Of a stretch of 42,647 bases of DNA, positions 16,971 to 40,156 are shown piece after piece (the stretch's first letter is position 1; each line of letters opens with the position of its first letter). The position numbers and the translations under genes are program-made. Location of the stretch: IMG/VR virus record IMGVR_UViG_3300020202_000131, positions 1-42,647 of that record. One strand, 5' to 3'. This DNA is from a virus. Under the pieces are notes generated by a model. The model made no database searches, had not been told where the DNA came from, and worked only from the letters and a program-made list of their open reading frames with translations.

Positions 16971-16971
16971 T

Positions 16972-19485: not shown

Positions 19486-19510
19486 GCTTAGCACAAAAAG
19501 GAGGCCACAC

Positions 19511-21111: not shown

Positions 21112-21305
21112 TTGCTCCGGAGCATTTGCTTAATATCGTCAAGCTGTTTGGAGATCGAAGCATAGTTTGCCCGGAGCTCCGCGATATTTGTCTTAGCTTC
21201 TACGACGCCGGCGCCAATCCACCAGCACCAACCAAGGATTATTGTCTGGAGGACGCCTACCAGGAACATTATGATTTTAGACTTATCTCCGTTGCTTTCT
21301 GCCAC
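21108..21305 (-). CDS. Membrane protein with coiled coil, holin or spanin candidate
   Basis: 65 residues from GTG at 21303-21305, with GGAGG upstream. The frame is open to 21356, but that lies inside the preceding gene. Residues 11-33 are one transmembrane helix (IIMFLVGVLQTIILGWCWWI), followed by a periplasmic or cytoplasmic coiled coil (AKTNIAELRANYASISKQLD). Size and layout fit an XhlA-like holin accessory or an i-spanin. No canonical endolysin is adjacent. Confidence 0.62.
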   Translation of the reverse strand: MAESNGDKSKIIMFLVGVLQTIILGWCWWIGAGVVEAKTNIAELRANYASISKQLDDIKQMLRSK

Positions 21306-22695: not shown

Positions 22696-22696
22696 T

Positions 22697-23779: not shown

Positions 23780-23790
23780 TGAATTTCTCC

Positions 23791-24831: not shown

Positions 24832-25107
24832 CTACCTCCTAACCGTAATGCACGAGCCGCTAACCGCATAGAGCTCTTGGCCAGCTCGCCACATCATCTT
24901 GACCGCGCCAGAGCTGAAAATCACCACTTCTCCATCTTTCATGTCCGTCAAATTCGGCGTCGAGCTCACGATCTCAAACTGCGCAGGCTGCGCCTGGCCG
25001 TATAGGTTCGTGAATTCCGAGTCAATCTTCCCCTGGCTGTCATGCGAGTTGTGGATAGGCCCGAACGCACATAAGCCAATGGCCGCCAACAGGATCCATG
25101 GCCTCAT
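24832..25107 (-). CDS. Small virion-region protein with signal peptide, 91 aa
   Basis: The ATG at 25105-25107 overlaps the nozzle gene stop (ATGA). N-terminal MRPWILLAAIGLCAFGP is a short signal sequence; cleavage near residue 15-20 is plausible. The mature part has the pattern STPNLTDMKDGEVVIFSSGA, then VKMMWRAGQELYAVSG, seen in small phage tail or capsid-surface proteins (a DGEVV turn and a short beta-sandwich). The signal peptide is unusual for such a protein. Confidence 0.62.
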   Translation of the reverse strand: MRPWILLAAIGLCAFGPIHNSHDSQGKIDSEFTNLYGQAQPAQFEIVSSTPNLTDMKDGEVVIFSSGAVKMMWRAGQELYAVSGSCITVRR

Positions 25108-27443
25108 TTGTTCGAAAGCGACTTCGCCGGCTCATAAAGGATATTCACGTTGTTGATGCCAAGCCCGATATCTGTCTCCCCATTCTGGAGGCGCAGCCGG
25201 ATCGTCTTAGCCTTCCGGGTTACCCCAGTTATCTCCCTGGAATAGCGGCCGCTGCCAGCGATCGAGAATGTGGAGTAGGAGAAATCACCCTCATCGCGGG
25301 AGGTTCCAATGGTCATTACGCCTCCGCCGGATTTGGTGCCATCTATTAGGTATTTAAGAATGTTCTTGTCGAAGAAATAGTCGCCCAATGGGAGGTCTGG
25401 GGTATCGTAAATCGAGACGATGGGGCTACCATTGAAATTGGTGCCGTAGTCCAGGCGATACACTGTTCCGCCGGTAACGGCGCCCCCGTAGAGCACGTTT
25501 CCGGCCTTGGCGTAGCAGTTAATCGGCAGGCCAACAATGGGCATCCAGGCGTCTGGGTTCGTGTTTGTAATTTTCGACTTGACATAGGTGAGCCGGAGCG
25601 TCGGGTCTGACGTGGTCGTCACCGTAAGCCAATAGCGATTAAGCCAATCCATGGCAAAGGCCCGGGCGTCCGTGGCCTGGCCCTCAATATGAGAGATTGT
25701 CACGTTATCCACGTTGGAATGAGGGTCCGCCACCGATTGAATTGTGGAGGCCCACTGGATGTATTTATTGATCGTCGGCGCATTGATGACTACGCCGGGG
25801 GAGATGCCCTGCCAGGTCTGCGTGGTAATATTAATAACGCTGGTGGAGGTCCGGTAGTAATAAGAAATAGCCCCGCCATTCGTATTTCGTGCGGAATCAA
25901 AGTTCCCCCAGGCGGTAATCGTGTTCATCGTGGAGACGTCCGATATGAATTGGCCTGTGGTGGCGGCCAAGAGCTTTATCGTCGAGAATCCGGTGAATGT
26001 GGAGGTGTAGAAATCGTAGGAGCACCCGCTGTCTAGCCCGGATGTCGCCTCGATGCGTATTTGGAACTGGGATCCGCTTAGGTCTGAGGATGTAAAGAGC
26101 ACCGGGACACTAAAGTTGTAGGTGATTTCATTGAAGTTTGTGTCTACCGGCATCCGCGTAAAGTCCGTGGTTTCCCCTGTCCGGTTGTTCTTAATAGTGA
26201 TCTTAACGTTGGGCGAGCAGCCACCCGGCGTACCGCGCGATACCAATGTTAGCGAGGTCGGATAGCCGAAGAAATTTAGGGGAACCGTCTCTGTGGATAG
26301 GCGTACGCGGTAGTCATACAGGGAGAGCCCGGGATTGGATAGCGAAATATGCGGGTTATTGTTCGCCGCGTAAGACGCGGGCGTCGGGTAGGTCGATCTA
26401 TTCATGTAAAACGGCTCCGTAGAAACCGTCAGAAGACCGGACAGCGTCGCCGTCGTGCCGGAAAATTGCCCCCGGCTAAATTCCGCCTGGCTGTCCCAGG
26501 AGTCCGTGACGATATTGGTTACCCCCTTATTAATTCTGGTAATATCGGGTTGAATTAGATCGCTAACACGCTCAATGTTGCGATAAACGCCTGTCTGCCC
26601 GAGAAAATGGCTCTGGCCGTCCAGAACGCGCACGGAATCATTGGAGACTACGCCGATATTCGCCTCCTCTTTGCGAGCCTTATAGTCCGAAGAGTTGTCT
26701 CCGTAAATCGTATAGATGCTATGCTCTTTGCCGGCTCGCAGTTGCCCCTGATAGATCCAAAGGGCTGTCCCGATCTGCCCATCCCCGCGGCCAACCGGCA
26801 CAACATTGATGGATGGCCAGGCAAACTGGTTATCCGGCGCAATAACGACGTTATCCGTCGTGATTACAGCGCTAAAGTAGAGGTCTGAGGCGGCATTAGG
26901 TGCGCCAAACCCCCAAACGCGGTCCTGGTAATATGCCCCGTAGCGGAATTTAGGCACATTGGGGGTCCCGTTGGACCCATTTAGGATGACTTTTGAAGTT
27001 CCGTCCCATGTTTGGACAAAATCTACCCCGTTAAACCCCCACATTTTATTGCGTACCTGGATCCAATTAAGGAGCGAGCCGGTATTAGAGGCGGAACTAA
27101 CCAGCACCCACGTGCTAAAGTCTGACGTCTCCAGGGTAACGCTGGAGTCGGTCACCAAAAACGTGGTTTGCCCGCTCTCCCGAACGAAAGGGAAAATTCC
27201 GGTAACCTTGGAGAGTGTTGCGCTCGAACCAAGAGCCACGTAGCCATTGATCCGCTCGATCTTCCCGTTATCAATGAATACATTCTGCATGTAGGGACTA
27301 TATTTCTTATCCAGCTTATGGCTGGGTAGCACGGTATTGAGGCCACCGCTAAAATCGTCGATCAGCTCCTGGTCGATACTAGGAGCAATGGCCGCCCCGA
27401 GGAGCGGAAGTGCTATTAGAAGGACCTGCCAGCGCTTTAGCAT
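25104..27443 (-). CDS. Tail nozzle / packaged-DNA stabilisation-like beta-propeller protein with signal peptide
   Basis: 779 residues. It starts with an apparent Sec signal (WQVLLIALPLLGAAIA, ending near residue 20), followed immediately by IDDFSGGLNTVLPSHKLDKK and YSPYMQNVFIDNGKIERING. That opening is typical of podovirus nozzle proteins (P22 gp10 / T7 gp12-like), which normally begin near FSGGLNT without a leader. Repeated W and G-x-D strand motifs follow (NKMWGFNGVDFVQTWDG, DRVWGFGAP, HFLGQTGVYR), as in a propeller. The C-terminal half is beta-sandwich-like. The start has GGAAGAGG upstream and overlaps the adaptor gene stop. Confidence 0.78.
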   Translation of the reverse strand: MLKRWQVLLIALPLLGAAIAPSIDQELIDDFSGGLNTVLPSHKLDKKYSPYMQNVFIDNGKIERINGYVALGSSATLSKVTGIFPFVRESGQTTFLVTDSSVTLETSDFSTWVLVSSASNTGSLLNWIQVRNKMWGFNGVDFVQTWDGTSKVILNGSNGTPNVPKFRYGAYYQDRVWGFGAPNAASDLYFSAVITTDNVVIAPDNQFAWPSINVVPVGRGDGQIGTALWIYQGQLRAGKEHSIYTIYGDNSSDYKARKEEANIGVVSNDSVRVLDGQSHFLGQTGVYRNIERVSDLIQPDITRINKGVTNIVTDSWDSQAEFSRGQFSGTTATLSGLLTVSTEPFYMNRSTYPTPASYAANNNPHISLSNPGLSLYDYRVRLSTETVPLNFFGYPTSLTLVSRGTPGGCSPNVKITIKNNRTGETTDFTRMPVDTNFNEITYNFSVPVLFTSSDLSGSQFQIRIEATSGLDSGCSYDFYTSTFTGFSTIKLLAATTGQFISDVSTMNTITAWGNFDSARNTNGGAISYYYRTSTSVINITTQTWQGISPGVVINAPTINKYIQWASTIQSVADPHSNVDNVTISHIEGQATDARAFAMDWLNRYWLTVTTTSDPTLRLTYVKSKITNTNPDAWMPIVGLPINCYAKAGNVLYGGAVTGGTVYRLDYGTNFNGSPIVSIYDTPDLPLGDYFFDKNILKYLIDGTKSGGGVMTIGTSRDEGDFSYSTFSIAGSGRYSREITGVTRKAKTIRLRLQNGETDIGLGINNVNILYEPAKSLSNK

Positions 27444-28132
27444 CCAGCCTCTTCCGGCTCGACGTATGAGCCCCAGTGAAACCCGGTCCCCTCGGAATCC
27501 TTAATGATGACGGATTCTAGCTTTTTTGCGTCAGCTATTACGGACGCCTTAATTGCTAACCCGTGGTCCCGATTATTTAGTTTCCCCATATAACAAAGGT
27601 GCACGGCGTAATCCTTGACCAAATCGTGGTAAACGGTGGGTAAATCCAACTCCGCAGACTCGCTGGAGGCTGCCGGCCGGTAAACGTAGCTCAAATAAAC
27701 CTTCTTCCCGACGGCGGATTCGGCAGTAGAGGGCCGCGGGTGGATCAATAGGTTCGACCCGTCGCGCACAAGATACTGCGGGCGCCCCTGGCTGTCGGTT
27801 GTCGTCTCCAGCCACATGGGTGAGATCTCAGCAAGCTCCTCCTCGGGGATGATCCTAAGCGGCAGGACATCTCCCGGGATGCTGGGATCCCCAAAATAGG
27901 CCTTCGTGGGCAGTATTAGGTCGCTGGCGTAGGTGCTAATGGCGTAGGAAGCCGTATTGGCTGTTACCTGAAAATTGGTTCGCTTGATCGGCTTTTTGAC
28001 CAGAGCCCCGAGATACCGCACGCCCTGGTCAATAAAACCGTTCAATTCGGCATCGGTGAAATCGGACGTGCTCGCCTCCGGCTGAGAGATCGCCTGACGA
28101 ATAAGTGTTCGGGTATCCGATTGTGTCGCCAT
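27437..28132 (-). CDS. Head-tail adaptor protein
   Basis: 231 residues. The N-terminal helix with TLIRQAISQPEASTSDFTDA and ELNGFIDQGVRYLGALVKKP is typical of portal-proximal adaptors (P22 gp4 / T7 gp11-like), as are the beta segment YAISTYASDLILPTKAYFG and the VYHDLVKDYAVHLCYM helix near residue 165-185. It would form the ring joining portal to nozzle. Gene order coat, accessory, adaptor, nozzle agrees. The stop overlaps the nozzle ATG by a few bases. Confidence 0.75.
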   Translation of the reverse strand: MATQSDTRTLIRQAISQPEASTSDFTDAELNGFIDQGVRYLGALVKKPIKRTNFQVTANTASYAISTYASDLILPTKAYFGDPSIPGDVLPLRIIPEEELAEISPMWLETTTDSQGRPQYLVRDGSNLLIHPRPSTAESAVGKKVYLSYVYRPAASSESAELDLPTVYHDLVKDYAVHLCYMGKLNNRDHGLAIKASVIADAKKLESVIIKDSEGTGFHWGSYVEPEEAGC

Positions 28133-28133
28133 A

Positions 28134-28508
28134 TTAGGCCACCGCTTCCTCTAGTTCCTTGAGATTTTTCTTGATGACCTTGCGATCCGCCTCATCAAGA
28201 GATTTCTCCAGTTCCTTATATTTAACCTGCGCCTTAACGTAAGCCGTGCTAACAGAAGCTTTGATTGCCTGCGCCTCACGGTTTGCCTCGGCCACGATTG
28301 CGTCCGCCGTTTCAACCGCCTTCCGGATGCGCTCCTCGGCTTCAACGTTCTGCCGGGCCAGCTCCGTGTTCCGTTCCTGGAGCTGAGAATGTTGCGTCTC
28401 TAAGGTTCGATAATTCAGCATCTCCTGCTGCGCAAGAGGCGCCAGCTTAGTAATGAGCGCCCCAAACTGCTTGAGATACTGGTCCAGCGTTTCAATGCGT
28501 CCTGCCAT
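28134..28508 (-). CDS. Coiled-coil protein, 124 aa
   Basis: ATG at 28506-28508 with AAGGAGG upstream. Almost entirely heptad repeats (from about residue 35 to 120: QLQERNTELARQNVEAEERI and on). A structural or assembly protein between coat and adaptor is likely. No homologous family named. Confidence 0.62.
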   Translation of the reverse strand: MAGRIETLDQYLKQFGALITKLAPLAQQEMLNYRTLETQHSQLQERNTELARQNVEAEERIRKAVETADAIVAEANREAQAIKASVSTAYVKAQVKYKELEKSLDEADRKVIKKNLKELEEAVA

Positions 28509-28519
28509 GTGTTCCTCCT

Positions 28520-28789
28520 TTATGGTCTTACGTCTACTTGCTTATCCGTAATCTTTCCGCGTTCCAGCTTCCCGGTCACATAATCCTTGCCTTTAACGGT
28601 ATCCGGCAACATTACCCGCTTATCCAGCTCTCGCAGGCGGGCCCGGGATACATTTTTCATCGTATGCAGCGAGTCGGTTTCCACGAGCGTTGGGAAGCCA
28701 AAGATCTTATCCTTCTCGCATCCCGGACAAACGTTGATCTTGTATCCGGCCTCGAAAATAATCCAACAGACATCGCATCTATTCGTCAT
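28520..28789 (-). CDS. Zinc-finger-like small protein, 89 aa
   Basis: The preferred start is ATG at 28787-28789; upstream codons fall in the terminator hairpin. CDVCW and CPGCEKDKIF (about residues 5-27) give a CxxC...CxxC zinc ribbon. A Lys/Arg-rich C-terminal half includes NVSRARLRELDKRVMLPDTV. Unknown function; may be an assembly factor or regulator. Confidence 0.6.
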   Translation of the reverse strand: MTNRCDVCWIIFEAGYKINVCPGCEKDKIFGFPTLVETDSLHTMKNVSRARLRELDKRVMLPDTVKGKDYVTGKLERGKITDKQVDVRP

Positions 28790-28801
28790 AAAATTGTGCG
28801 G

Positions 28802-28830
28802 TGGGGAGCCCCGCTTAGCAGGGCTCCCCA
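28802..28830 (-). terminator. Strong hairpin after the coat gene pair
   Basis: TGGGGAGCCC (28802-28811) pairs perfectly with GGGCTCCCCA (28821-28830), loop nine bases. On the minus strand it is followed by CCGCACAATTTT. Placed after the coat and 28846 genes, it may reduce downstream transcription so that coat protein is made in excess. Confidence 0.78.
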
Positions 28831-28845
28831 ACCGCTATGCTCTAA

Positions 28846-29361
28846 TTACTGAAAGACGTAAAAGAGCGCTCCCAGAGTGTGGAAGTCGGACCTACTCGGC
28901 CGGAGAATCAGGCCCTTATTAAACCGCATGGGTTTAGGGGTGCCAGAGAATCCAGACGCATAGGCGCCGGGCCCACCGCTCGAGGCGTTGACGTTGTATA
29001 GCCGTACCATAGGACCAGTGTTCTTCCCTGAGTCCGCAGACGTGGAATCAAACACATCGCAGAAGTCGGACGTTGTTCCGGAACCAAAAATGATTCCATA
29101 GAACGAGCCCGACATGCCGCCAGAAAGACTCTTTTCCAGCGGAACCCCAACGTTGCCCGGGAGGGTGACGGTGGAATAACCCACGCCAGTTCCGGAAACG
29201 AGGAAGCTTATAGTCCAGGTGCTAATGTCAACTCCGCCGTAATCAGCCGTTGCCAAAGTGTTCTGGTCGCCACGAGGGAGTCCCCTCATGTCGGCATTAG
29301 CCACTCCGACGCACAGCAAAAACACGGCAGCTACTAATGTTTTAAACTTCTTCACGTTCAC
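28846..29361 (-). CDS. Exported or virion-surface protein downstream of coat gene, 171 aa
   Basis: N-terminal signal peptide: basic MNVKKFK, hydrophobic TLVAAVFLLCVGV, then ANA before Asp24, a textbook signal-peptidase site. The mature part is Gly/Ser/Thr-rich with beta-type sequence (STWTISFLVSGTGVGYSTVT, SGTTSDFCDVFDSTSADSGK). A decoration or spike protein would normally sit here, yet a secreted form is not expected for one assembled in the cytoplasm. Co-transcribed with coat and ended by the terminator at 28802-28830. Confidence 0.68.
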   Translation of the reverse strand: MNVKKFKTLVAAVFLLCVGVANADMRGLPRGDQNTLATADYGGVDISTWTISFLVSGTGVGYSTVTLPGNVGVPLEKSLSGGMSGSFYGIIFGSGTTSDFCDVFDSTSADSGKNTGPMVRLYNVNASSGGPGAYASGFSGTPKPMRFNKGLILRPSRSDFHTLGALFYVFQ

Positions 29362-29375
29362 TACCTCCTTAAGGT

Positions 29376-30239
29376 TTAAGCTGCGCTGTTGATGACCACG
29401 AAGTGGTCACTCCTGATTACGTTCTGTCCATACAACGACTGCGCGACGAAGAGGTCCGCCAGGACCAGGTTCGACGTGGTTCTCGTACGCTCGATGTCGA
29501 CATTCTTCTGCCAGGCGATCGCAATAGCGCTCTTGTGGATCAAGAGGTTCTTTTTGACGGCCGGGGTTCCGGTTTCGACAATGGACGTAGAGAGATACAC
29601 GGGCGAGCCAAGCAAGGGGAACACGTAGCCGGTCGTCAGGACGTTTTTAGAAACGCCCGCCGAGTCGGCCGAGGTCAGCTGCTGCTCATTCAGAAGCCCG
29701 TTGTAATAAGCCACCGGGTGCAAGCACCAGGAAAGCTCCTCCAGCGGGATGTTCTGATTAGCGAGCCGCAGCATCGCTTCTTGCGCCAGCGTCTTGTCAA
29801 AGTTCGCAGGCGAGCTCGTGCTACCGACAGAGTTGCCAGCCGCAACGCTCGAGTGGAGCGCAGCAATCTGGGCATCATATCTGGCAGCAAAGGCCGCGCC
29901 GGCGGCAGAGGGGAATTTCGAGTCCGGGGTCCAGAAGGACTGGGCCTGAGCCCGGTCCAGGACGCGGATCGCAATTTGCTCCCACTGGTTCAGTGAAACA
30001 TCCGAAGTCGTTGGTGTATAGTTCTGAGGAGTGAAGCTTCCGTCCGCGGCCACAGTTCCAACGGTGTACCGCTGGTCAATGGTCACGTGGATGACATCAC
30101 CCTTCTTATTCGCAATACCGCTCTTGTTCGCCACGCGGTTCAAAATGACACCCTTGGCGTAACGAGCGTCTTCGATCTTCTCGTCCCACAGCTCTTTGAC
30201 AGTCGCGTTTAATGCGGTGTTATCAAAGTCATTAGCCAC
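29376..30239 (-). CDS. Major capsid (coat) protein, HK97-fold type
   Basis: 287 residues, GTG start with GAGGTAAAC in front. The N-terminal arm NATVKELWDEKIEDARYAKG is followed by KKGDVIHVTIDQRYTVGTVA, NYTPTTSDVSLNQWEQIAIR, RVLDRAQAQSF, FDKTLAQEAMLRLANQNIPL, the LSWCLHPVAYYNGLLNEQQL segment, SPVYLSTSIVE, and RTTSNLVLADLFVAQSLYGQ at the end. This order of elements (E-loop region, A-domain helix, P-domain strand) is characteristic of compact podovirus or siphovirus coat proteins. The scaffold gene is directly upstream. Confidence 0.87.
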   Translation of the reverse strand: MANDFDNTALNATVKELWDEKIEDARYAKGVILNRVANKSGIANKKGDVIHVTIDQRYTVGTVAADGSFTPQNYTPTTSDVSLNQWEQIAIRVLDRAQAQSFWTPDSKFPSAAGAAFAARYDAQIAALHSSVAAGNSVGSTSSPANFDKTLAQEAMLRLANQNIPLEELSWCLHPVAYYNGLLNEQQLTSADSAGVSKNVLTTGYVFPLLGSPVYLSTSIVETGTPAVKKNLLIHKSAIAIAWQKNVDIERTRTTSNLVLADLFVAQSLYGQNVIRSDHFVVINSAA

Positions 30240-30274
30240 TTTTGTTTACCTCAAAAGTAACTGCAAGCTATTCT

Positions 30275-31159
30275 CTATTTCTTAGTGACAAGCCGCTCGA
30301 TTTCGCCCAATACCTGCCTTCTGCGTTCCATGAATTTTTCATCCTGGCGCAGAGATGGATTTGCGTCTAGCTGGTCGTTGAGTTTCTTCTTTTCAGCCAA
30401 TAGGTCTTGCTCGGAGACGGACCGCTTGTCTCCCATACCTGGATTTCCAGTGCCGGTTCCCCCCATTAGCGTCTTTTTAAGGACGGTTGGGTTGGTTGGC
30501 TTTTGGGCTTCTCCAAGTTCCATTAGGGCGTATTTGACCGCCAGGTCTGGATTGGTCTTAGAGAGTTCATTCAGGCCGGATTCAATAAGGAATTCCTTAA
30601 TGCGGTGTGCGCGTTCGGGATCCTTAGCGATTCGCTCCTGGAGCGTTTCCTTTGAGTCTGGGCTTGTTTTTGGGAATAGCTTTTCCAACGCCTCTTGCTG
30701 TTTGCGCTCTTGTTCGGCCACGGCGGCAGATTCTCTCCAGCCGGTAAAATCCTGCTTGAGGGCAGCGATTTGAGCATCATAATGGTCACGCAGGGCTTTT
30801 TCCCTTGCGGCCAAAATGCGCTTATGTTCCGGTGAGAAATGCGCCGGGTCAAAGTCGGGCACATCCGGGGCGACAGGTGGTTTTTGGTTTAAAGACGCCT
30901 GTTCCTCTCTCCATTTACGGAGAGCGGCAACTTCTTCTTTAAGTTCTCGGACTGCTTGTCGTTCACGGTAATAATCCGAGGCGGGGCGCCTTCTTGTCGG
31001 CTCCGGTACTTGAGGCACTTTGCTACCAGCTTCGACCTCGCTGGCGGTTGCCGGTTGAGGCTCCGGGGCCGCTTGCGCGGGTTGCGGAGTCTCCAACGCC
31101 GGGGGTTCAGACCCGGTACCCTCAACAACGGGGGCAGTTATAATTTCGTCAGGTGACAT
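30275..31159 (-). CDS. Capsid scaffolding protein
   Basis: 294 residues with GAGGAGAAAAC upstream of the ATG. A Pro/Ala/Glu-rich disordered N-terminal half is followed by coiled-coil (YYRERQAVRELKEEVAALRK), then a conserved-looking central block (SPEHKRILAAREKALRDHYD). The acidic/basic C-terminal region includes VSEQDLLAEKKKLNDQLDAN. Composition, length and place immediately upstream of the coat gene fit a scaffold that leaves before DNA packaging. Confidence 0.8.
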   Translation of the reverse strand: MSPDEIITAPVVEGTGSEPPALETPQPAQAAPEPQPATASEVEAGSKVPQVPEPTRRRPASDYYRERQAVRELKEEVAALRKWREEQASLNQKPPVAPDVPDFDPAHFSPEHKRILAAREKALRDHYDAQIAALKQDFTGWRESAAVAEQERKQQEALEKLFPKTSPDSKETLQERIAKDPERAHRIKEFLIESGLNELSKTNPDLAVKYALMELGEAQKPTNPTVLKKTLMGGTGTGNPGMGDKRSVSEQDLLAEKKKLNDQLDANPSLRQDEKFMERRRQVLGEIERLVTKK

Positions 31160-31174
31160 TTAGTTTTCTCCTCT

Positions 31175-31939
31175 TTAGCTTGTTACGGCCTCCCGCTCGC
31201 ACGGGGAATCTTGATTAGGAGCTACTACATTAAAAACGTGGGTATCGTAAGACTTTCGCAGGCCGTTCTTTACCTCGATGACATCGTCCCAGGTGTACTC
31301 GTACGGCCCAATATGGCCCAATTTGATCGTCGTGTCGCACCAAATCTTGTAGCCAAGCTTCCGCGCTTTCTCGCAGAAGTACCAATCTTCCGACATGTCT
31401 TCCCAGGTGCCGTCGATGAGCATCTTTTCGTGCTGGAAAAACGGATAATACGCCGTCGTCCCATGCTTGCAGAGTGGCGCGATGTTTTCATTGATGAGCC
31501 TATTGAGCACCTCCCTGCGGATCACCATGCAGCCGGTTGAGATGGAACGCACCTCGTGAATCTTTCCGTTCTTCCCAAACTCAATCGTCTCTGTACCTAA
31601 TGGGCGGATGGCGAATCCGGGCTTAATTTTTGATTTCGTCACATACGCGGCGCCGACGACGTCCAGTTTAAGCTGGTGCGCCTCGTGCATTAGCTTGGTC
31701 GCATCGAATGGAGAAATGACGATGTCATCGTCAATAAACATCAATAGCTCATCCGTCGTAGCCTTTAAGAACTGGGTGGCTGCCCGTGAGCGTGAGCGCG
31801 AAATCAGCGCGTCGCCATCCACAAGGCGTACGGTCACCCTGGGATTGGGGCAGCCCTCCAGGGCTCGCAGGTTCTCGTAGGTTTGCGCTTGGATCTCCCG
31901 GTGAGCGCAGACGGCTACGGTGACGGAAAAGTCGCTCAT
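31175..31939 (-). CDS. GT-A family glycosyltransferase embedded in the capsid region
   Basis: 254 residues. N-terminal nucleotide-binding half: VTVAVCAHREIQAQTYENLR, VRLVDGDALISRSRS and the metal-binding ELLMFIDDDIVISPF (acidic residues 70-72). Acceptor-side motifs: RSISTGCMVIRREVL near 131-145, EDMSEDWYFCEKARKLGYKI near 180-199 with the W-E-D type acidic cluster, and LGHIGPY with His209. This matches retaining or inverting GT2-like enzymes using nucleotide sugars. It lies between a coiled-coil gene and the scaffold, so it may glycosylate virion or exported proteins. Start overlaps the upstream stop (TAATG). Confidence 0.85.
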   Translation of the reverse strand: MSDFSVTVAVCAHREIQAQTYENLRALEGCPNPRVTVRLVDGDALISRSRSRAATQFLKATTDELLMFIDDDIVISPFDATKLMHEAHQLKLDVVGAAYVTKSKIKPGFAIRPLGTETIEFGKNGKIHEVRSISTGCMVIRREVLNRLINENIAPLCKHGTTAYYPFFQHEKMLIDGTWEDMSEDWYFCEKARKLGYKIWCDTTIKLGHIGPYEYTWDDVIEVKNGLRKSYDTHVFNVVAPNQDSPCEREAVTS

Positions 31940-32358
31940 TATTGGGCGGCCGCCAGGATTGCCTGTTTTTTGCTCTCAAGCTCTTGGAGCTTCCCAAGAT
32001 ACTCAGAGTAAAGGGTGGCGTATTTCTCCTTAGCCGCGTCCGCGTCTGCCCGAGCCTGTTCGGCCTGGAAAAGCCGGGTCTTAAGCTCGGCTCGATCCGC
32101 CGTAACCTGCTCCTCCTTAAGCCTCAGCTCTCGAACCCGGTCGTCGATTTTACGCTTCGACTCAATCTCCGCCGTGCCAATAGCTTCCTGAATGGCGGCT
32201 TTTTTCCCCTCCAGGGCGGCAACCTCAGCCGTGAGAGACGCCTTCTTAGACTCCAGGAAGGAAAGATTACCCTCGGCCACAGAAACCTTCGAATCGATCG
32301 CCTTCAGATCCTTCAGGCACTCCTTTGCAACCTCCTCCAACCTCTTAAGTGACTCCAT
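31939..32358 (-). CDS. Long coiled-coil protein, 139 aa
   Basis: ATG at 32356-32358, GGAGG upstream. Heptads cover nearly all of it (SKVSVAEGNLSFLESKKASL and on to the end). No tail or DNA-binding motif. It could be an assembly chaperone or a structural rod. It is coupled to the glycosyltransferase downstream. Confidence 0.62.
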   Translation of the reverse strand: MESLKRLEEVAKECLKDLKAIDSKVSVAEGNLSFLESKKASLTAEVAALEGKKAAIQEAIGTAEIESKRKIDDRVRELRLKEEQVTADRAELKTRLFQAEQARADADAAKEKYATLYSEYLGKLQELESKKQAILAAAQ

Positions 32359-32393
32359 GTTTAATTCCTCCAGTTATTACGCCTGCTTAAAGA

Positions 32394-33491
32394 CTATTGC
32401 GAAAAAGTAAATCCTCTGTCCGTGTAAACCTTGTCAATCCTTAATCCCATAAAGGCCGTCATGGTCGAAGTGTCCACCCAAGAAGCGTTCCCCGTCGGGT
32501 TTTTGGCGTGAGTGGCCCCTGCGTGTTCTCCAAAAGGTGTTCCTCCTCTAGCTGTTGCGGAGGGGAGAACCAAATCATAGGTAGTGACGTTCGTCACGCT
32601 TGTTGGGCGAATGACGAGGCGGTATTTTTTCCCGGCGGTTAAATCTACAGGCTCTGGCCAGGTGAATAAACTAACCTGGGAGCCCGTCAAAGCGCGGGCC
32701 GCATTTACAAACCCCAAATTGGCAAGCTCAGTTACTCCGTCGGTATCATAAAGAACGAGTTGCCCATCCCCGTCCTGGTCCATCCAGACCCAAGCCCCCA
32801 CCGAACGGGCGGAGAAAGGCATGGTCAACCAATTTCCGCGCTCGTCCAGAGTTGACGAATTGTTGAATGTGTTGGAGTTAATCACCTTGAGGGGCAGCAA
32901 ACCCTGAACGTGATAGAAGCTCCCATCCGAATACTCCAATCCTAGGGTGATGTTGGTGAGCCCCTTGGTCCATCCAGTTCCGATATTCGTCACGCTATAC
33001 GGAAGGTTAGTCTCATCGTCGCTCAGGCCGTTTATCGCCATTGATCCGGGGGCGCTGACCGAGTTTGTGATAATGAAGGCCACCGTTGATCCCGCCGTGA
33101 CCGTTGTCGCGGTAAAAGTAGAAATAACGTGCATCGAGTCCTGTCCGGCGTCAATCGTATGAGTTACCGTAACAATGGGGTCTTCTGTGTTAGGGACTCC
33201 ATTCGTCGAGAATATGGTGTAAAATCCGACGGTCATATCGGCCCCCGTCGTAACCGTTGCAGTTCTCCAATGAGCTTTTACAAGTTGCGCTCCTGGGGCC
33301 ACATGGGGAAACTGAAAAACGGAGCCATAGGATTCTCCCCCTGCATCCAAGGTTGCCATTGGTATCGTTGATGGATCCCCATTGACTCGACGGCTCGTGA
33401 TGGGAGGAACATCCAAGTATTGATTCGCCGCTCCAAAGAGTGAAAACGGATTTAAGAAAAGCGAAAGTAGGAATAGCCGTTTTATGTTCAT
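32394..33491 (-). CDS. Exported beta-sandwich protein, 365 aa
   Basis: Signal peptide: MNIKRLFLLSLFLNPFSLFGA, with cleavage after Ala20/21. The mature part is rich in Ser/Thr/Gly with jelly-roll-type strands (GSVFQFPHVAPGAQLVKAHW, TVGFYTIFSTNG, GAWVWMDQDGDGQLVLYDTD). A DGDGQLVLYDTDG motif hints at a Ca-binding turn. Similar modules occur in phage receptor-binding and carbohydrate-binding proteins. It overlaps the neighbouring gene by four bases and belongs to the exported cassette between portal and scaffold. Confidence 0.68.
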   Translation of the reverse strand: MNIKRLFLLSLFLNPFSLFGAANQYLDVPPITSRRVNGDPSTIPMATLDAGGESYGSVFQFPHVAPGAQLVKAHWRTATVTTGADMTVGFYTIFSTNGVPNTEDPIVTVTHTIDAGQDSMHVISTFTATTVTAGSTVAFIITNSVSAPGSMAINGLSDDETNLPYSVTNIGTGWTKGLTNITLGLEYSDGSFYHVQGLLPLKVINSNTFNNSSTLDERGNWLTMPFSARSVGAWVWMDQDGDGQLVLYDTDGVTELANLGFVNAARALTGSQVSLFTWPEPVDLTAGKKYRLVIRPTSVTNVTTYDLVLPSATARGGTPFGEHAGATHAKNPTGNASWVDTSTMTAFMGLRIDKVYTDRGFTFSQ

Positions 33492-33808
33492 CGTGGCGGA
33501 AGGATAAACTGCCTTGTTTGAAGATAGGTACGGATGGCCGACAGAGTATTGGCCCCGCCGTCATCTAAATGGTCCCGAATCCGCGCTTTGATTTGGATTA
33601 AGACAAACAATTCGTTCCCCTGCTTGTCCTCAGATTCGACAAGGGGAGCCCTGATTTCTTCGAGCGTAAATTCATACTTTCTTCCCGTGGTATTTCCGAC
33701 GATGCGGTAATGGTCGCACCCACTCGCCCCGTTGGCTGTCACGGTAATCAGCTCGGCAAGGGCCGGGGAGGGAGCCAGCAAAAGCAAAATCAATAGGAGC
33801 TTTTTCAT
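33488..33808 (-). CDS. Exported small protein, 106 aa
   Basis: Signal peptide MKKLLLILLLLAPSPALA followed by ELITVTANG; cleavage after Ala18 is clear. The mature part (TVTANGASGCDHYRIVGNTT, then GRKYEFTLEEIRAPLVESED, NELFVLIQIKARIRDHLDDG) is a compact beta/alpha protein. Four-base overlaps with both neighbours show coupling. Function unknown. Confidence 0.7.
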   Translation of the reverse strand: MKKLLLILLLLAPSPALAELITVTANGASGCDHYRIVGNTTGRKYEFTLEEIRAPLVESEDKQGNELFVLIQIKARIRDHLDDGGANTLSAIRTYLQTRQFILPPR

Positions 33809-36800
33809 TTCGTTAGAGCGTAAATCTGTAAATTGATCCTCGTCACCGTGGCCGGAGCCGTGTCTACGTTGAATGAGTAAACATCTCCCTCGTTAAAAGA
33901 CCTGTCCCATCCGGTCAAAACATGGTCCCGATTCTTCTGCGCCGTTCCCGAAAATCCGGGGCAGGCTGCGCTGCAAACGGATGTGACGGGCGGGAAGTTC
34001 TCAAAGGAGGCTTTCTTAATGTTCACCCGAATCGAGCCCGCCTGATCTCCCAGGATGGTGTAGCTCGAAATCGTCCCGGCGTAGCCCATGGAGACAAAGC
34101 CGTAAGTGCTGGTTGCGATAACTCCCCCCGCGCCGTCAATCGTTACGCCGAACACTCGGGTTTTGGTGGCACTCGAGAGGTCGATATAGGCCGTCGTCGC
34201 GGCGGCTAGGGGAGGTTTAAGCAAGAATGGGCCGCTTGAAAAATTGAAAGTCGCTACGGAGTTGGAGGAGATTTGAGTCGTTCCGTTTAAGACTTCGATG
34301 GACGCTCCGCCGCCCCCACCGCCGCCCGTGTTATCTGTCCCGTCCGCAAAACCCGCCGGAACGTCTTTTAAGGAGTTCCAAGAAACCATGTTCGTTGCGG
34401 CGTTTATGGTGTTCGTGTTGTCCGCCAATTCGGAGGTTGTAGATTTTAAAATATCCGTCATTGTTGACGTAAAGACTGGGAGAGACATTTCCCCAATGAA
34501 AAGCTCATTATTGATGGTTGTAGAAGCTCCCCGGAATTCCACCAATCGGGAATTCGAGCCGGTGGAAAGCGCAAGAATCGAAGCGTCTGCCTTGGTGGAC
34601 ATGGTGGCGATCAGAACCCCCACGTCAGGAGAGGGAATCACCCCGCCCAGGGAAATGGTCTGCGCTCCCCTCCCAAACCGCATTTTTTCCACGTTGTTTA
34701 GGTAAAACATGAGATTTAGGTCGGTATTTCTTTGATAGAGCCCGGTTGTGGCATCTCCGGCGAAAGAGTATTGCACAATCCCATTTGTGTTTGGATTGGC
34801 GAGAAAAGAGGCATTCGCCGCAAGGGTGAGATTGTCAGTAAAGGTCATCCGATCCGCCCCGTCCTTCGTAAAGATAAATCCGCCCGTCGTTCCGTAAAGG
34901 CCGTCGTTTCTCCCATTGCTAATGATCCATGATAGGGACGGGCTGCCAGCGGAGCCCGCGGCCAGAGTAAGCTGGTGAGTCGTGGATTGATGCACAATAA
35001 ACCCGGCCGTGGAGGTAATGACGCCCTGCACGTTCCAGGACGACTTCACAATCCCCTGCCCAGTCACGGTCATGGATGGAACTGTCATGTATTCACGAAT
35101 GGCAACGGTCGAGAAGGATTGGCCTGCGGTCCAGGTAAAGGAGGCGTTATGGATGGTCACGGAGGCGAATGTGGAATCAAAAGCGTAGTTTGCGCCTACC
35201 AGCGTCCAGGTCGTAACGGCTACCGCTTGCGCCCCATTGTAAATCGCACCGGACCCACCGCCACCCCCGCCACCTCCATTGATGGTGACGGTTACAGTAG
35301 ATCCGGACTGGGAAGACGCGACCCCCTCTCCTCTAAAATCAATTACGGTTACATGGGAACCGGGAACTCCGCCCTCATCAGAAACCACGACGGTTTGCTG
35401 GTTCAATAGGTGGACATTGGCGGAGGTTGTGGACATAAATTGGGAGACCTGTACCTGGCCGATCATTAGCCCGGTGGAGTTGGAAATTCCAAAGCCATAC
35501 GCATTGATCGGGGAGGTGTCTATAACCGGAATCCCGTTAAAGATGTTCCCTAGGCTGTGATATTTAATCCCGTGGCCATCTCCACGCCCAACGAAGCTTT
35601 CGAGGTTGTAAACCTTGTTATCAGAAAGTGTCGTGTTATAATCCACAAAGTTCGCCTGCCGGAAGAATGACCAGTTAATTCTTACGGGAGCGGAGACCAC
35701 GTTATTGCTAATGGAAACGCCGGTCCTAGGCGGCGTGTCTAAGCCGCGGGAATAAATAACGGTTCCACCTTGGCCACCCGCGGAGCTTCTAAAGATAAAG
35801 TAATTGTTGGAAATTGCGGTAAAAGTAGAGGATCCTGTCGGAACTGGCTCGTCGCTGCCATCTAAAACCACAATTCCGTAATCGTTTTTATCCAGATTGT
35901 TAGCACCTAGAATAAACTTATTCCCATCCACGACAGTATTTCTCCCGGTCCCAACCGATACGGCAATAGCATGGACCCCCTCAAAGAGGTTATCTTCAAC
36001 GCTCGTGTTTATGGAGCGGACGTTTGACCAAATCGTTTCGTATAGGGAGGCCTGGTAGGATGGCGACGAGAAGTGGTTTTCGTACGTCCAGCTATCCGAG
36101 GAGTCGATAACCTTAATAGCCCCGCATTGCCCCTGGAACGTCCGGCCGGCGCACCCATGGTATTCCTTAAACCAGTTGTGGTGAATTTTCGTATTGGAGG
36201 AGTGTTCTACCGATAGAATTGCTCCCCCGTTGGTATAGTTCGCCATCGCCTGCGCTCCCACGATAGTGTTGTAGGCGAATTCAGAATTATTTTTCATCTC
36301 CACCAGGCGAGAAGTAAAGACTCTGGAGCCGGCGTCCAGCATGAATCCTTCCATGTAGCCGTAATTTGTGATGAGGGTCTTGGAGTCGTGATTTAAAACA
36401 AAGTTGGTCCCCGAAGAATTCCTGGCGGCAAAGAGGCTTACCTTATAAGGAATGGAGGTTTCTGTGGCGTCATAGGTTCCTGAGCGGACAAAGATATTTA
36501 AGGGAACGGTGTTTGTGGAGGTAAGGGATGCGCCCCGATCTGAAAGCGCCTTATTAAGGGCCAGGTGGAAGATAGAATTCGCGTAATCCACCCCCACGGC
36601 CCCGGTCGTTCCTATAATGATGTCATAAGTCCTTGGGGTCGCAAAAGTAACGGAAGACATGCCGTTCGAATTAACGATCGAGGCTCCGGGGAAGGCCAGG
36701 GTCGAGAAAGATACGGTATTTGCGGTGTTATAAATCGCTGCCCCACCGCCCCCGCCGCCGCCACTCCCGCAGCCGGTGCAATTCCCATTAATCGTCACGT

Positions 36801-36963
36801 CTCCGTCAAACGTGGTCGAGGATTTAAAGGTCTGCGAGCCGGTCCAAGTGTTAGTGGAGCGCAATAGGGCCTTGGGGTCTGGAGTCAAATTAATCCCCCC
36901 AGCCCCGGCGGCAAAAGCCGCCGAGGGGGATAGGCCGAGGAGAAAAATGATCCATTTTTTCAT
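33805..36963 (-). CDS. Tail fibre or spike with beta-helix and signal peptide, 1052 aa
   Basis: Signal peptide MKKWIIFLLGLSPSAAFA, then mature AGAGGINLTPDPKALL. Three Gly-rich linkers (about residues 66-74, 563-571, 879-886) separate modules. Module one begins IYNTANTVSFSTLAFPGASI and contains a right-handed beta-helix of the pectate-lyase type (roughly 95-480), with landmark TYDIIIGTTGAVGVDYANSI and repeated N-x-F coils (NTKIHHNWFKEYHGCAGRTF, NTSVEDNLFEGVHA, NTVVDGNKFILGAN). Later modules are Ser/Thr-rich fibre segments. Such proteins bind or cut host polysaccharide. A signal peptide on one is unexpected. The stop overlaps the next gene by four bases. Confidence 0.8.
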   Translation of the reverse strand: MKKWIIFLLGLSPSAAFAAGAGGINLTPDPKALLRSTNTWTGSQTFKSSTTFDGDVTINGNCTGCGSGGGGGGGAAIYNTANTVSFSTLAFPGASIVNSNGMSSVTFATPRTYDIIIGTTGAVGVDYANSIFHLALNKALSDRGASLTSTNTVPLNIFVRSGTYDATETSIPYKVSLFAARNSSGTNFVLNHDSKTLITNYGYMEGFMLDAGSRVFTSRLVEMKNNSEFAYNTIVGAQAMANYTNGGAILSVEHSSNTKIHHNWFKEYHGCAGRTFQGQCGAIKVIDSSDSWTYENHFSSPSYQASLYETIWSNVRSINTSVEDNLFEGVHAIAVSVGTGRNTVVDGNKFILGANNLDKNDYGIVVLDGSDEPVPTGSSTFTAISNNYFIFRSSAGGQGGTVIYSRGLDTPPRTGVSISNNVVSAPVRINWSFFRQANFVDYNTTLSDNKVYNLESFVGRGDGHGIKYHSLGNIFNGIPVIDTSPINAYGFGISNSTGLMIGQVQVSQFMSTTSANVHLLNQQTVVVSDEGGVPGSHVTVIDFRGEGVASSQSGSTVTVTINGGGGGGGGSGAIYNGAQAVAVTTWTLVGANYAFDSTFASVTIHNASFTWTAGQSFSTVAIREYMTVPSMTVTGQGIVKSSWNVQGVITSTAGFIVHQSTTHQLTLAAGSAGSPSLSWIISNGRNDGLYGTTGGFIFTKDGADRMTFTDNLTLAANASFLANPNTNGIVQYSFAGDATTGLYQRNTDLNLMFYLNNVEKMRFGRGAQTISLGGVIPSPDVGVLIATMSTKADASILALSTGSNSRLVEFRGASTTINNELFIGEMSLPVFTSTMTDILKSTTSELADNTNTINAATNMVSWNSLKDVPAGFADGTDNTGGGGGGGASIEVLNGTTQISSNSVATFNFSSGPFLLKPPLAAATTAYIDLSSATKTRVFGVTIDGAGGVIATSTYGFVSMGYAGTISSYTILGDQAGSIRVNIKKASFENFPPVTSVCSAACPGFSGTAQKNRDHVLTGWDRSFNEGDVYSFNVDTAPATVTRINLQIYALTK

Positions 36964-37263
36964 TTAGTAGCCGATTGCCACATGCACCGTCACGTTAGCT
37001 CCAATCACAAACCCTAATGAGGATGCGTTGTTTGCGATTGGGTATGGAAGGGAGAGGTCGAATTGAAGCGCCTGGCCGTCGGAGATCGGGAAGGCATCTG
37101 CATCGGCGTCAGCCGTGTTGAACTTAAACGTCACGTCGCCACCTTTGGGCATGATGATAAAAGTCTTAACCGGCACCGGAAAAGTTATTTCTGTCCCTGG
37201 CGAAGCAGTCGCCGTGAAGGTTTTAGTTTTTCCGTTGCGCCCGGAGGCTTGGAACGTCGGCAT
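36964..37263 (-). CDS. Small beta-sandwich virion-like protein, 99 aa
   Basis: The ATG overlaps the preceding stop (TAATG). It is the only member of this cassette without a signal peptide. Sequence begins PTFQASGRNGKTKTFTATAS and PGTEITFPVPVKTFIIMPKG, then GDVTFKFNTADADA, typical of a compact trimer-forming sandwich. Possibly a decoration or fibre-base protein. Confidence 0.6.
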   Translation of the reverse strand: MPTFQASGRNGKTKTFTATASPGTEITFPVPVKTFIIMPKGGDVTFKFNTADADADAFPISDGQALQFDLSLPYPIANNASSLGFVIGANVTVHVAIGY

Positions 37264-37661
37264 TATCTATTCCTGTAAATGATTTGTATGCAGGCCGGGA
37301 TTCCATCCCCGGAATGATTATGAACGCCGAGCCAGGAGGATGTTTGAACCTCATAAAACCACTGATTTTGGGTTTGAGCCCGCACGGTATCGATTAGCTT
37401 GGAGTGTATTGCCAGGGTAGATCCAACGCCGTCATAGACGGAGAATTTTGCATCCCCCGTCCCGGCCGAAGATACTTTTATGGAATATAGCGATGCGGGC
37501 GACGGGCTGGAAATCCAAACGCTGTGGAGCTGGCTGTTGGCGCACGTAAAGGATGATGTATACACCGCCTCGGAAAAATACGGCACGGCCCCCTTAATGG
37601 GCTGCGCGTAGAGCTCCCCGGCAAGGGCCAGAAGCCCCAAAACTAGATATAACTTCTTCAT
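37263..37661 (-). CDS. Exported beta-sandwich protein, 132 aa
   Basis: Signal peptide MKKLYLVLGLLALAGELYA with cleavage after Ala19, mature QPIKGAVPYFSEAVYTSSFT. Two cysteines at about 41 and 124 could form a disulphide, fitting an exported protein. The core (HSVWISSPSPASLYSIKVSS, AKFSVYDGVGSTLAIHSKLI) resembles small phage sheath/host-surface proteins. Coupled with 36964-37263 and 37661-37879. Confidence 0.66.
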   Translation of the reverse strand: MKKLYLVLGLLALAGELYAQPIKGAVPYFSEAVYTSSFTCANSQLHSVWISSPSPASLYSIKVSSAGTGDAKFSVYDGVGSTLAIHSKLIDTVRAQTQNQWFYEVQTSSWLGVHNHSGDGIPACIQIIYRNR

Positions 37662-37879: not shown

Positions 37880-38252
37880 TGGTTGTTCCTCCTGCATCTC
37901 GTGCCTCCTTACGGGTATCTTTTTGCATCCTCATCATGTCGGCCTGCAAAACTATCTTTTGCGGGATTCCAACAGCTATGTCAAAACCGTCCAGGATAGA
38001 GAAATCGTTGCTACAAAGGTCTTTCTGCGCCCTGGAGCGTGCGTGGGCCTTGCCTTTTTCCTCAATCGACAGGCGCATGGATTCAAAGTAGCCGTTAAGC
38101 ACTTTCCAGGCAAAATTGTCGTTTTCTGTGCCACATTTCGAACACGGGATCTTCCCGTTCATCATTTGCTTGACATGGACGGCATTTACGAAGTCTTCGT
38201 CCTCAAATTCGATGACTGGCAGGTGCGTTTTCTTATTCCAAGCTACTTTCAT
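37863..38252 (-). CDS. Hypothetical protein after portal gene, 129 aa
   Basis: The ATG at 38250-38252 overlaps the portal stop (ATGA). Beta start (VAWNKKTHLPVIEFEDEDFV), a CSKCG pair near residue 37, helix FAWKVLNGYFESMRLSIEEK, and a charged Met-rich C-terminus. It may be an assembly factor for the connector. No family recognised. Confidence 0.6.
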   Translation of the reverse strand: MKVAWNKKTHLPVIEFEDEDFVNAVHVKQMMNGKIPCSKCGTENDNFAWKVLNGYFESMRLSIEEKGKAHARSRAQKDLCSNDFSILDGFDIAVGIPQKIVLQADMMRMQKDTRKEARDAGGTTNDYGD

Positions 38253-40156
38253 GCGCTAGCCTCCAAATCCGGCTGATCTGCGCCCATTGGCGACGTCGGA
38301 ATCGGCCCAATCGGCGTCTGTTGAAAATTTTGATCCAATCCGGCTCCGGCAGCCTCTCCGGCGACCTCATTAGGTAGCCCGGGGGCCATCCCACCGCCAT
38401 TTTTGTTCGCCATCATGGTCATTTGGTCAATTAGCGGCATGGGCTCCTTAAGAAGCCGCGGATTCATGCCGAGACGACGGAAAAGCTCCTCAAAAAGAGG
38501 AGCAACCGCATTAATGGACGCCGGAACGAAGTTTCTTACCGAAGTGCACATCTGTAAGGTCTCCAATAGCTTCTGGATCCCCTCCGGACGGAAATCTTTA
38601 TCGGTGACGATCTTAACCTTAAAGCCCACGTTGACCGGGAGCTTGTTTTTGTCGACCAAAATCGGCTTTTTTGTCCCGGTAAGCCCAACCCAGATGGGAG
38701 AATCCATATAATTCAGGTTATTGAGGTGAGAAACCTCGAGGTGTTCGCGGATTAGGCTCTCCCCGATGATTTCGGCATGCACGGAGGCCGCCCGGATGGC
38801 TTCTGTCTGCGACAAACCCGCCTCCGTTGCGGAAATTCCCTTGGAATACTGCGCCTGGAGGTTCGTTTGAGCCCCAATGATGTTCCGGAAGTCTTCCCGG
38901 CGAAGATTTATCATCTCCAGGGCGACCTTAAAGGCGTTAGGATCGGGAGTGAGGGGTGCCAGCTGGTTGATATCCTCCAGCTCAATGGTTTTTAGTGGCT
39001 CCCACACCATTTGCTTCTCGGAATAACCCGAATACTTCCCGATCTTGAACATCATTAGCGTAAACGCGGTAAGCAAATCGTTCGTCATGGACTCATTAAG
39101 GTCCATTTCGCGCTGCAACTTGCGGGCAATCTGAAAAATACCGTAGCCCATGGGCTCATCTTCGAAATCTTTATAGGTCGCGGTAAGAAAACGGGTGCGC
39201 CAGTCGCCATATTGGGTCATGTGGAGCTTGCAAATGTCTTGTCCATCCAGGATCCCGGCGGACCAATCCACAAAATCGGGGTCCACATCGGGGCCAAGAG
39301 AGGCCGCAAGCGCCCGAATTACCGGATTGTCGGTCTCAAGGCGCCCGTGGTAATTGATGGATTCAAAAATTTGGGCGTCCATCTCGTTATAGCCGGCGCG
39401 TGCGCGGGATTGTTTAATGCGGTTGTAGGTCCCCGAGAGCGAGGCGGGGATCCCGTTGCCCCAATCGGCAATATGGCGCTCCACTTTGGCGCGATCCCAG
39501 TATTCCGTATCGAGAGAGGCAATGTTTTTGAGCATCCACTTGGAAAGGAAATCAATCGTAAAGACAAAGTCGCTATCCCGAATATCCCCCACACTCGTAT
39601 CAAACCCCACGCGGATCATCGGTCTAAACTGAAAATCGGTATACTCCATGCTCTTGCGGGAAAACCCATAGGGCTTAGACACCAGCGGCTGCTCGATCAT
39701 CACGGTTCCGACGTTTGCTAAGGATCGCGTGGTGCGCAGAAGCTTGCGCTTAAATTGGGAGACTTCTTTTTGCCGTAAGAGAACGCCTTCCGTGGCGTAG
39801 AGCTCCTCTTCGCTAACCTCCATGCCCAGCGGATTGAGCCCCATCTTAACGGCTTCAAAATACGGGTCCGCGGCGGTGAGCATTCGCTGCCAGACGGTAG
39901 CCAGCGTCTCGGCGCCGCGGTGGGTTTCCCCACTCTTAGAATTGAAAAGCTGTTTCGGCTTTTTTTCTTTGGAAATCGATGGCTTAATTCGCCAGGAGTC
40001 CGTCCCCTTAAAATACGCCTCAAAAAACTTCTCCATCCGGCGCTCCCACATCTGCACCTTATCCATGATTTCGTCACGGATCTTGTCCAAATGCTCCTGG
40101 GGTTGCTCCGCTAAAACAAACGGCTTCGGGGTTATAACGTTAAAATCAAATGCCAT
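38249..40156 (-). CDS. Portal protein, podovirus head-tail connector type
   Basis: 635 residues, AAGGAG upstream. Landmarks of the podovirus head-tail connecting protein family: KVQMWERRMEKFFEAYFKGT near 31-50, GETHRGAETLATVWQRMLTA near 76-95, the DPYFEAVKM turn, VGFDTSVGDIRDSDFVFTID near 182-201, the clip-region block, and the C-terminal ADMTMM/Gly-Ala tail. The dodecamer would form the DNA channel and the docking site for terminase. It is directly downstream of the large terminase gene. The C-terminal 45 residues are disordered. Confidence 0.88.
   Translation of the reverse strand: MAFDFNVITPKPFVLAEQPQEHLDKIRDEIMDKVQMWERRMEKFFEAYFKGTDSWRIKPSISKEKKPKQLFNSKSGETHRGAETLATVWQRMLTAADPYFEAVKMGLNPLGMEVSEEELYATEGVLLRQKEVSQFKRKLLRTTRSLANVGTVMIEQPLVSKPYGFSRKSMEYTDFQFRPMIRVGFDTSVGDIRDSDFVFTIDFLSKWMLKNIASLDTEYWDRAKVERHIADWGNGIPASLSGTYNRIKQSRARAGYNEMDAQIFESINYHGRLETDNPVIRALAASLGPDVDPDFVDWSAGILDGQDICKLHMTQYGDWRTRFLTATYKDFEDEPMGYGIFQIARKLQREMDLNESMTNDLLTAFTLMMFKIGKYSGYSEKQMVWEPLKTIELEDINQLAPLTPDPNAFKVALEMINLRREDFRNIIGAQTNLQAQYSKGISATEAGLSQTEAIRAASVHAEIIGESLIREHLEVSHLNNLNYMDSPIWVGLTGTKKPILVDKNKLPVNVGFKVKIVTDKDFRPEGIQKLLETLQMCTSVRNFVPASINAVAPLFEELFRRLGMNPRLLKEPMPLIDQMTMMANKNGGGMAPGLPNEVAGEAAGAGLDQNFQQTPIGPIPTSPMGADQPDLEASA

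Follow-up and report, generated by a model that had tools for sequence, protein, structure and literature searches.

Sec-type signal peptides on the exterior virion proteins of a short-tailed phage suggest a tail made and joined outside the cell interior

The virion module of a short-tailed phage

The window, by which we mean the whole stretch of 42,647 bases that was analysed, corresponds to an entire virus record and is the genome of a short-tailed phage, in which an integrase is also encoded. Its virion module is encoded on the minus strand and runs from terminase and portal through coat, SU10-type adaptor and nozzle to three proteins at 21283-24825 (Table 1). The features of short-tailed Caudoviricetes are present, namely TerL, a portal (weak match to phrog_332), an HK97-type coat and an SU10-type adaptor followed by the nozzle, and no tail tube or tape measure gene was recognised among the scanned virion genes, for which missing profile matches are weak evidence. 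The 25104 product is the tail nozzle, as judged from its family, its place after the SU10-type adaptor and its modelled fold. The top Foldseek matches of the nozzle model were tail or nozzle complexes of the short-tailed phages Pan3, Pa223, Pam1, VP1, SU10, PhiM1, T7 and P22, a ranking that derives from a model of low confidence (mean pLDDT 48). The structure model of the 32394 product (mean pLDDT 41) was set aside as fold evidence.

The products at 23791 and 22697 have homologues in the related genome G004, and a small exterior-looking protein at 36964-37263 is devoid of a leader. Exact 8-mers of TerL, the adaptor and the 91 amino acid protein revealed no close relatives in viral contigs, and tblastn against INPHARED with the nozzle, portal, adaptor and 91 amino acid protein produced no match. 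Closeness to the Kuravirus/SU10 group was not found, as nozzle, adaptor and portal match no phage record by tblastn, and a search of genome contigs for a host with two alignments was likewise without a match.

Table 1. Features of the virion module. SP score, result of the rule-based signal peptide scorer; scores near 8 are uncertain, and the scorer is unable to separate a long signal peptide from an anchor.
Feature	Position	Strand	Evidence
Terminase large subunit, without leader	40165..41526	-	phrog_2 1.5e-29; SP score -0.3
Portal protein, without leader	38249..40156	-	phrog_332 4.3e-5 (weak); 40% identity to G004 portal; SP score -0.5
132-aa protein, leader MKKLYLVLGLLALAGELYA	37263..37661	-	SP score 10.0; strong Shine-Dalgarno; matching leader gene G004 19122-19619
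Tail fibre/tailspike, 1052 aa, leader MKKWIIFLLGLSPSAAFA	33805..36963	-	C-terminal domain phrog_10330 virion structural protein 1.3e-15; SP score 10.1
106-aa protein, leader MKKLLLILLLLAPSPALA	33488..33808	-	SP score 12.6
Beta-rich exterior protein, 365 aa, leader	32394..33491	-	SP score 9.1; homologue L078 5091-6197
Scaffold-like protein, without leader	30275..31159	-	upstream of coat gene; composition; SP score -0.9
Major coat protein, without leader	29376..30239	-	phrog_267 8.4e-19; SP score -6.7
171-aa protein adjoining coat gene, leader; decoration-like by position	28846..29361	-	SP score 12.3; strong Shine-Dalgarno
SU10-type adaptor, without leader	27437..28132	-	PF24175 1.8e-17; SP score -1.95
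Predicted tail nozzle (hub), Sec leader MLKRWQVLLIALPLLGAAIA	25104..27443	-	phrog_3287 4.5e-9; Foldseek; SP score 9.2
Nozzle signal peptide (predicted), about 18-20 codons	27390..27443	-	no ATG/GTG/TTG before FSGGLN; missing from nearly all other nozzle homologues
91-aa tail protein directly downstream of nozzle, leader MRPWILLAAIGLCAFG...	24832..25107	-	SP score 8.2; weakest cleavage site
Internal/ejection-type proteins (n = 3), without leader	21283-22725, 22697-23779, 23791-24825	-	position after nozzle; SP scores -1.1, -4.0, 1.5

Seven leaders with the properties of signal peptides

Signal peptides were evaluated with a rule-based scorer that was written for this analysis and considers the charge of the n-region, the hydrophobic core and the residues at positions -3 and -1. 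Eighteen known E. coli signal peptides reached at least 8.17, while shuffled N-termini had a 99th percentile of 7.9. As stated in the original prediction, seven open reading frames (ORFs) of the minus strand begin with a Sec-type signal peptide (scores 8.2 to 12.6). The neighbouring head, packaging, adaptor and internal proteins are without leaders; no other ORF of the virion module reaches 8 at its first start. Shuffles of each leader's own composition matched its score in at most 2 of 500 cases. A positively charged n-region and an uncharged hydrophobic core are present in all seven; the Ala-x-Ala-type end, which had also been claimed for all of them, is clear as small residues at -3 and -1 in six, but poor in 24832. 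This leader is the weakest of the seven and its best site lies directly before FGP; in its homologue in G004 (12487-12807; 29% identity over 65 aa, E 1.4e-6), a leader is likewise recognisable by eye and when an internal start is used. The nozzle leader would have a proline at +1 if cleaved after AIA. By reading, the lipobox L-[AS]-[GA]-C of SPase II leaders is absent from all seven leader ends.

A score of at least 8 was obtained for 7 of the 37 minus-strand ORFs of the window with 90 or more amino acids and, as background, for 14 of 679 genes from 99 other nozzle loci (Fisher p = 4e-5). None of 61 virion proteins from T7, SU10, P22 and lambda reached this value, and the exported lambda proteins Lom and Bor scored 10.5 and 9.0. 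The leaders have a median length of 20 amino acids, which suits a diderm host, and export of the exterior proteins via Sec is well supported by these sequence properties.

Spread of the leader among nozzle homologues and related genomes

More than 100 IMG/VR nozzle loci were fetched by using a DNA pattern for the nozzle motif. Nearly all of these nozzles start 4-30 residues before FSGGLN and have no leader, which marks the leader as an addition to the nozzle. The L155, L146 and L133 nozzles, however, have a leader positioned as in the nozzle of the window. A profile of L155 and L146 detected eight loci besides L155, one of which is L146's own contig again, and an adaptor profile contributed about a dozen further contigs; within the lineage defined by these two profiles, essentially all nozzles begin with a signal peptide. 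Searching for a hydrophobic N-terminus combined with the motif added L192, L197, L199, L209 and L210. The nozzle leader recurs in the A1/A3 lineage and also in L133, L192, L199, L209 and L210. Leader-bearing nozzles are found in at least five divergent groups and on more than 20 contigs. In a tree of 143 nozzles, the 21 that scored as leader-bearing fall into several groups within one half and require 3 to 7 changes, although the deep forks are weak and do not decide between a single and a multiple origin of the leader.

Among twelve compared members of the main lineage, mean identity is 22% in the leader versus 53% in the mature nozzle, yet none of them has lost the hydrophobic core. A conserved function combined with a freely varying sequence is the usual signature of signal peptides. 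For the original prediction, the comparison of homologues is mixed but favourable: leaderless homologues occur in other groups, whereas in relatives the leader is kept in kind, though not in sequence, at 36-58% nozzle identity.

The L192 nozzle locus belongs to G004 (33,961 bases), which shares with the window 41% identity in the terminase, 40% in the portal, 33% in both coat and adaptor and 36% in the nozzle. In G004, leaders are present on the nozzle, the small protein after the nozzle, the gene after the coat, a gene located between portal and scaffold, and three fibre-region genes. A search of viral metagenomes for relatives of the same gene order, as had been proposed, recovered the same leader-bearing classes in a partly different arrangement: the fibre-region genes of G004 follow the internal proteins, whereas those of the window are located between portal and scaffold. 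Because the relocated genes still have leaders, the leader tracks the kind of protein and not its map position. The C-terminal fibre domain of the 33805 product recurs on a leader-bearing fibre in G004, and a leader gene is found at or near the place of 28846 in G004 (16874-17320), L172, L176, L178, L210 and G005. In the nearly whole genomes G010 and G005, leaders cluster within the virion module. No leaders are present in cultured relatives recognised by their coat protein (Roseobacter CRP-902) or in ct7ZZ929.

Leaders follow the division between outside and inside of the virion

Grouping the proteins of the leader-bearing lineage by family showed a nearly all-or-none distribution of leaders: 56 of 59 exterior proteins bear one, versus 1 of 62 among the adaptor, head and internal proteins (Fisher p ~1e-29, a guide only, because related sequences are not independent). 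On the exterior side, leaders were counted on 24 of 25 fibres, on 21 of 23 nozzles in one family, with a score of 7.9 for the remaining two, on all 6 nozzles in another, and on 5 of 5 small post-fibre proteins. On the other side, a single leader among 24 adaptors stands next to none in coat, portal, internal and other head-region families. Overall, 82 of 203 genes in the lineage have a leader-like score, against the 14 of 679 genes in the 99 other nozzle loci. The leader-bearing proteins include undoubted fibres, i.e., collar-domain proteins, proteins with the Mtd second domain, and a tailspike that combines a beta-helix with an S74 chaperone, while ejection proteins with lysozyme or pesticin domains lack a leader. 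The leaders, their conservation and this outside/inside division can be read directly from the sequences, and the idea of exported tail proteins in a tailed phage has survived every sequence test and describes a trait shared by several phage groups.

Proposed assembly route and alternative explanations

In this virus and its scattered relatives, export tags mark the proteins of the tail exterior and are missing from head, packaging and internal proteins, a pattern that suggests production and joining of the tail outside the cell interior. For translocation, cleavage, and where and when the parts are joined, we infer the following. The host Sec machinery would move the nozzle, the fibres and the smaller exterior proteins across the inner membrane and the leaders would be removed. 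In the cytoplasm, the leaderless coat, scaffold, portal, terminase, internal proteins and adaptor would give rise to heads that are packed with DNA. These heads would meet the exported tail parts either on failure of the inner membrane at lysis or in the periplasm, and the virion would be completed at that site. That the leaders are working, cleavable Sec signal peptides, and that exported exterior proteins are joined by DNA-filled heads at lysis or in the periplasm, is the simplest reading, and one that we judge could as readily be right as wrong. For a two-compartment virion, in which the cytoplasm yields adaptor-capped heads packed with DNA, the periplasm receives an exterior of nozzle, fibres and head-associated surface proteins via Sec, and the two are joined only once the inner membrane has failed, our confidence falls slightly short of even. 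Heads and tail parts of P22 and lambda are known to join in vitro, which makes assembly outside the cell interior plausible. In known podoviruses, the nozzle is added in the cytoplasm soon after packaging and helps to hold the DNA; heads without a nozzle would therefore need another plug. A phage-encoded export helper was not recognised.

The original prediction had offered three readings, i.e., a tail or adhesion apparatus finished in the periplasm or on the surface, proteins that coat the infected cell, and N-terminal membrane-insertion segments used at infection. An action on the infected cell, such as receptor masking, superinfection exclusion or surface change, by fibres and small proteins that are not part of virions, or of which only a cytoplasmic fraction is built in, seems unlikely to us. 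It is true that exported non-virion proteins can sit among tail genes, as exemplified by lambda Lom between J and Stf, and that many leader-bearing proteins here are without an assigned function. Nevertheless, the nozzle, which is a virion part, is leader-bearing in at least five groups, leaders also occur on collar-domain fibres, Mtd-domain proteins and the S74-chaperone tailspike, and they follow virion classes rather than single genes; coating of the cell could thus hold for fibres, but it leaves the nozzle unexplained. Uncleaved leaders, which would anchor tail parts in the inner membrane during assembly or insert into the target membrane upon infection, are in our view decidedly unlikely. 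The charge orientation places the mature part outside, the median length of 20 amino acids and the mostly SPase I-type sites with small residues at -1 and -3 are typical of cleaved signal peptides, and ejection proteins, which do enter membranes, are leaderless. Membrane-insertion segments therefore fit poorly, even though several leaders are strongly hydrophobic, the sites of 24832 and of the nozzle are ambiguous and the scorer is blind to the difference between a long signal peptide and an anchor. Of the three, completion of the tail or adhesion apparatus beyond the cytoplasm is the best fit, since the set of leader-bearing proteins follows the outside/inside division of the virion.

Very little credence is given to a role of the leaders in folding, in which the periplasm would be needed for disulfides or periplasmic chaperones, with joining afterwards at lysis. 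A Cys pair is present just after the leader in some nozzles (CSKGC in L161, CTRNC in L165), but cysteines are similarly frequent in exported and non-exported proteins (0.78 vs 0.71 per 100 aa), odd counts prevail and the nozzle of the window contains only three; a need for disulfides as the reason for the leaders is not supported by these counts. The possibility that the leaders are prediction artefacts or wrong starts, i.e., hydrophobic codons upstream of the true starts, is rejected as hardly credible. Homologues of other groups do start downstream, but in the nozzle of the window the leader start is followed by no further ATG, GTG or TTG before the conserved FSGGLN motif is reached, strong Shine-Dalgarno sequences directly precede the leader starts of 28846 (TTAAGGAGGTA-GTG) and 37263 (CGGAGGAATGTA-ATG), and the leader is conserved in kind among the relatives, which together largely refute such an artefact. 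Several of the other leader starts overlap the upstream stop codon.

Meaning of a proposed Sec-exported tail and comparison with known systems

According to textbook knowledge, tailed phages are assembled wholly in the cytoplasm, and to our knowledge no tailed phage makes and joins its tail outside the cell interior. Searches of the open literature, most subscription papers being outside that coverage, retrieved no description of tail proteins that a tailed phage exports via Sec, an absence that is not proof. The nozzle, the fibres and Sec leaders are each known, and it is their combination, as predicted here from metagenomic contigs by sequence only, that appears not to have been described. 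According to one paper, the variable receptor proteins of phages differ from those of bacteria in having no signal peptide, and this absence has been taken as a mark of the phage-borne forms (PMC6199706). Building the virion in two compartments, if true, would represent an assembly route undescribed for any tailed phage. If the leaders work, assembly of the tail can be divided among compartments, receptor-binding proteins can leave the cytoplasm ahead of lysis, and defences in the cytoplasm that recognise tail proteins would miss the exported ones. Furthermore, signal-peptide-bearing fibre-like genes on metagenomic contigs may then be viral virion genes and not host adhesins.

The virus resembles SU10 (Kuravirus) and P22/T7-type short tails in its PF24175 adaptor, in a beta-propeller-like nozzle core encoded after the adaptor gene, in fibres on nozzle or adaptor and in internal ejection proteins; a leader is not mentioned in the consulted passages of the SU10 tail paper (PMC9509320). 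Different from SU10, T7 and P22, none of whose tested virion proteins has a signal peptide, the exterior set is equipped with them here.

Filamentous phages (M13/fd) also have virion proteins with Sec signal peptides; their coat proteins carry them and assembly is completed at the inner membrane. They extrude ssDNA without a preformed head, and genes, capsid and packaging are unrelated to those of the present virus with its TerL, portal and HK97-type coat. Lambda Lom and Bor and the superinfection-exclusion lipoproteins are likewise phage-encoded and exported by a signal peptide, with Lom inside the tail gene region, but they are not virion parts. Loss of an N-terminal leader from a virion protein, as predicted here, also occurs in P22 gp7, from which OpdA removes a 20-residue leader, and in the processing of the lambda portal B. 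Both, however, score below 6 and are not Sec-like, and these proteins are cytoplasmic or internal.

The exported set varies, which counts against the export model: in the uncultivated podovirus ctLwi270 (MW202554, L235; Manatee Spring) and in IMG/VR L078, leaders are restricted to fibres and small proteins, and the nozzle is leaderless, unlike in the window. These two thus show the trait in partial form. As a conjecture, the trait may have begun with receptor-binding proteins, the nozzle being added later. In both cases the likeness to the present virus lies in the fibres: ctLwi270 has a collar-domain fibre with a Sec leader after the nozzle, and the beta-rich fibre of L078, which is homologous to the 32394 product (28% over 323 aa, E 4e-19), also begins with a Sec leader.

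Partial forms of the leader trait

In two nozzle loci on other contigs, L078 and L235 (MW202554, uncultivated podovirus ctLwi270), a nozzle without a leader is found together with fibres and small proteins that carry predicted Sec signal peptides. Both loci represent a partial form of the leader trait. One of them, L235, is a deposited GenBank genome. In a further locus, L210, a good Shine-Dalgarno sequence is followed by two hydrophobic segments and then by the adaptor frame, which encodes either an exported adaptor or a small membrane protein fused to the adaptor.

Additional putative envelope and integration genes

The lipoprotein-like product in the window is possibly an outer-membrane spanin. 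The SGNH hydrolase-acyltransferase, encoded outside the virion module, possibly modifies surface polysaccharide. The glycosyltransferase-like gene lies within this module, between the scaffold gene and the fibre genes, and has relatives in several further nozzle loci, including L078. In L176, the coat gene is followed by a leader-bearing gene, and a membrane gene is located immediately 3' of the latter; the Wzy_C match refers to the L176 protein, and the L178 and L179 genes were likened to it by appearance and position. Because a tyrosine-type integrase gene is located close to tRNA-Cys, the window phage may be temperate, with the tRNA-Cys gene as a possible attachment site.

Features of the window and of related loci
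Feature	Locus	Position	Strand	Match or context
Leader-bearing fibre/small-protein genes	L078	5091-6197, 3382-4682
Leader-bearing fibre/small-protein genes	L235 (MW202554)	1430-2221, 8985-9479, 13521-14546
Adaptor gene	L210	5465-6235		two hydrophobic segments precede adaptor frame
Small lipoprotein-like reading, LSKRHWLTLLLLVLTGCAHS	window	within 11566-11898	-	internal TTG start
GDSL/AlgX-like SGNH hydrolase-acyltransferase	window	7250-8452	-	PF00657, PF16822
Glycosyltransferase-like gene	window	31175-31939	-	phrog_1574, 1.6e-17
Membrane protein with O-antigen ligase domain	L176	6187-7284		Wzy_C, PF04932
Membrane gene resembling that of L176	L178	986-2212		equivalent position
Membrane gene resembling that of L176	L179	2412-3374		equivalent position
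Tyrosine-type integrase	window	17812-18927	+	PF00589, 3.3e-23
tRNA-Cys gene	window	19356-19433	-	near integrase gene
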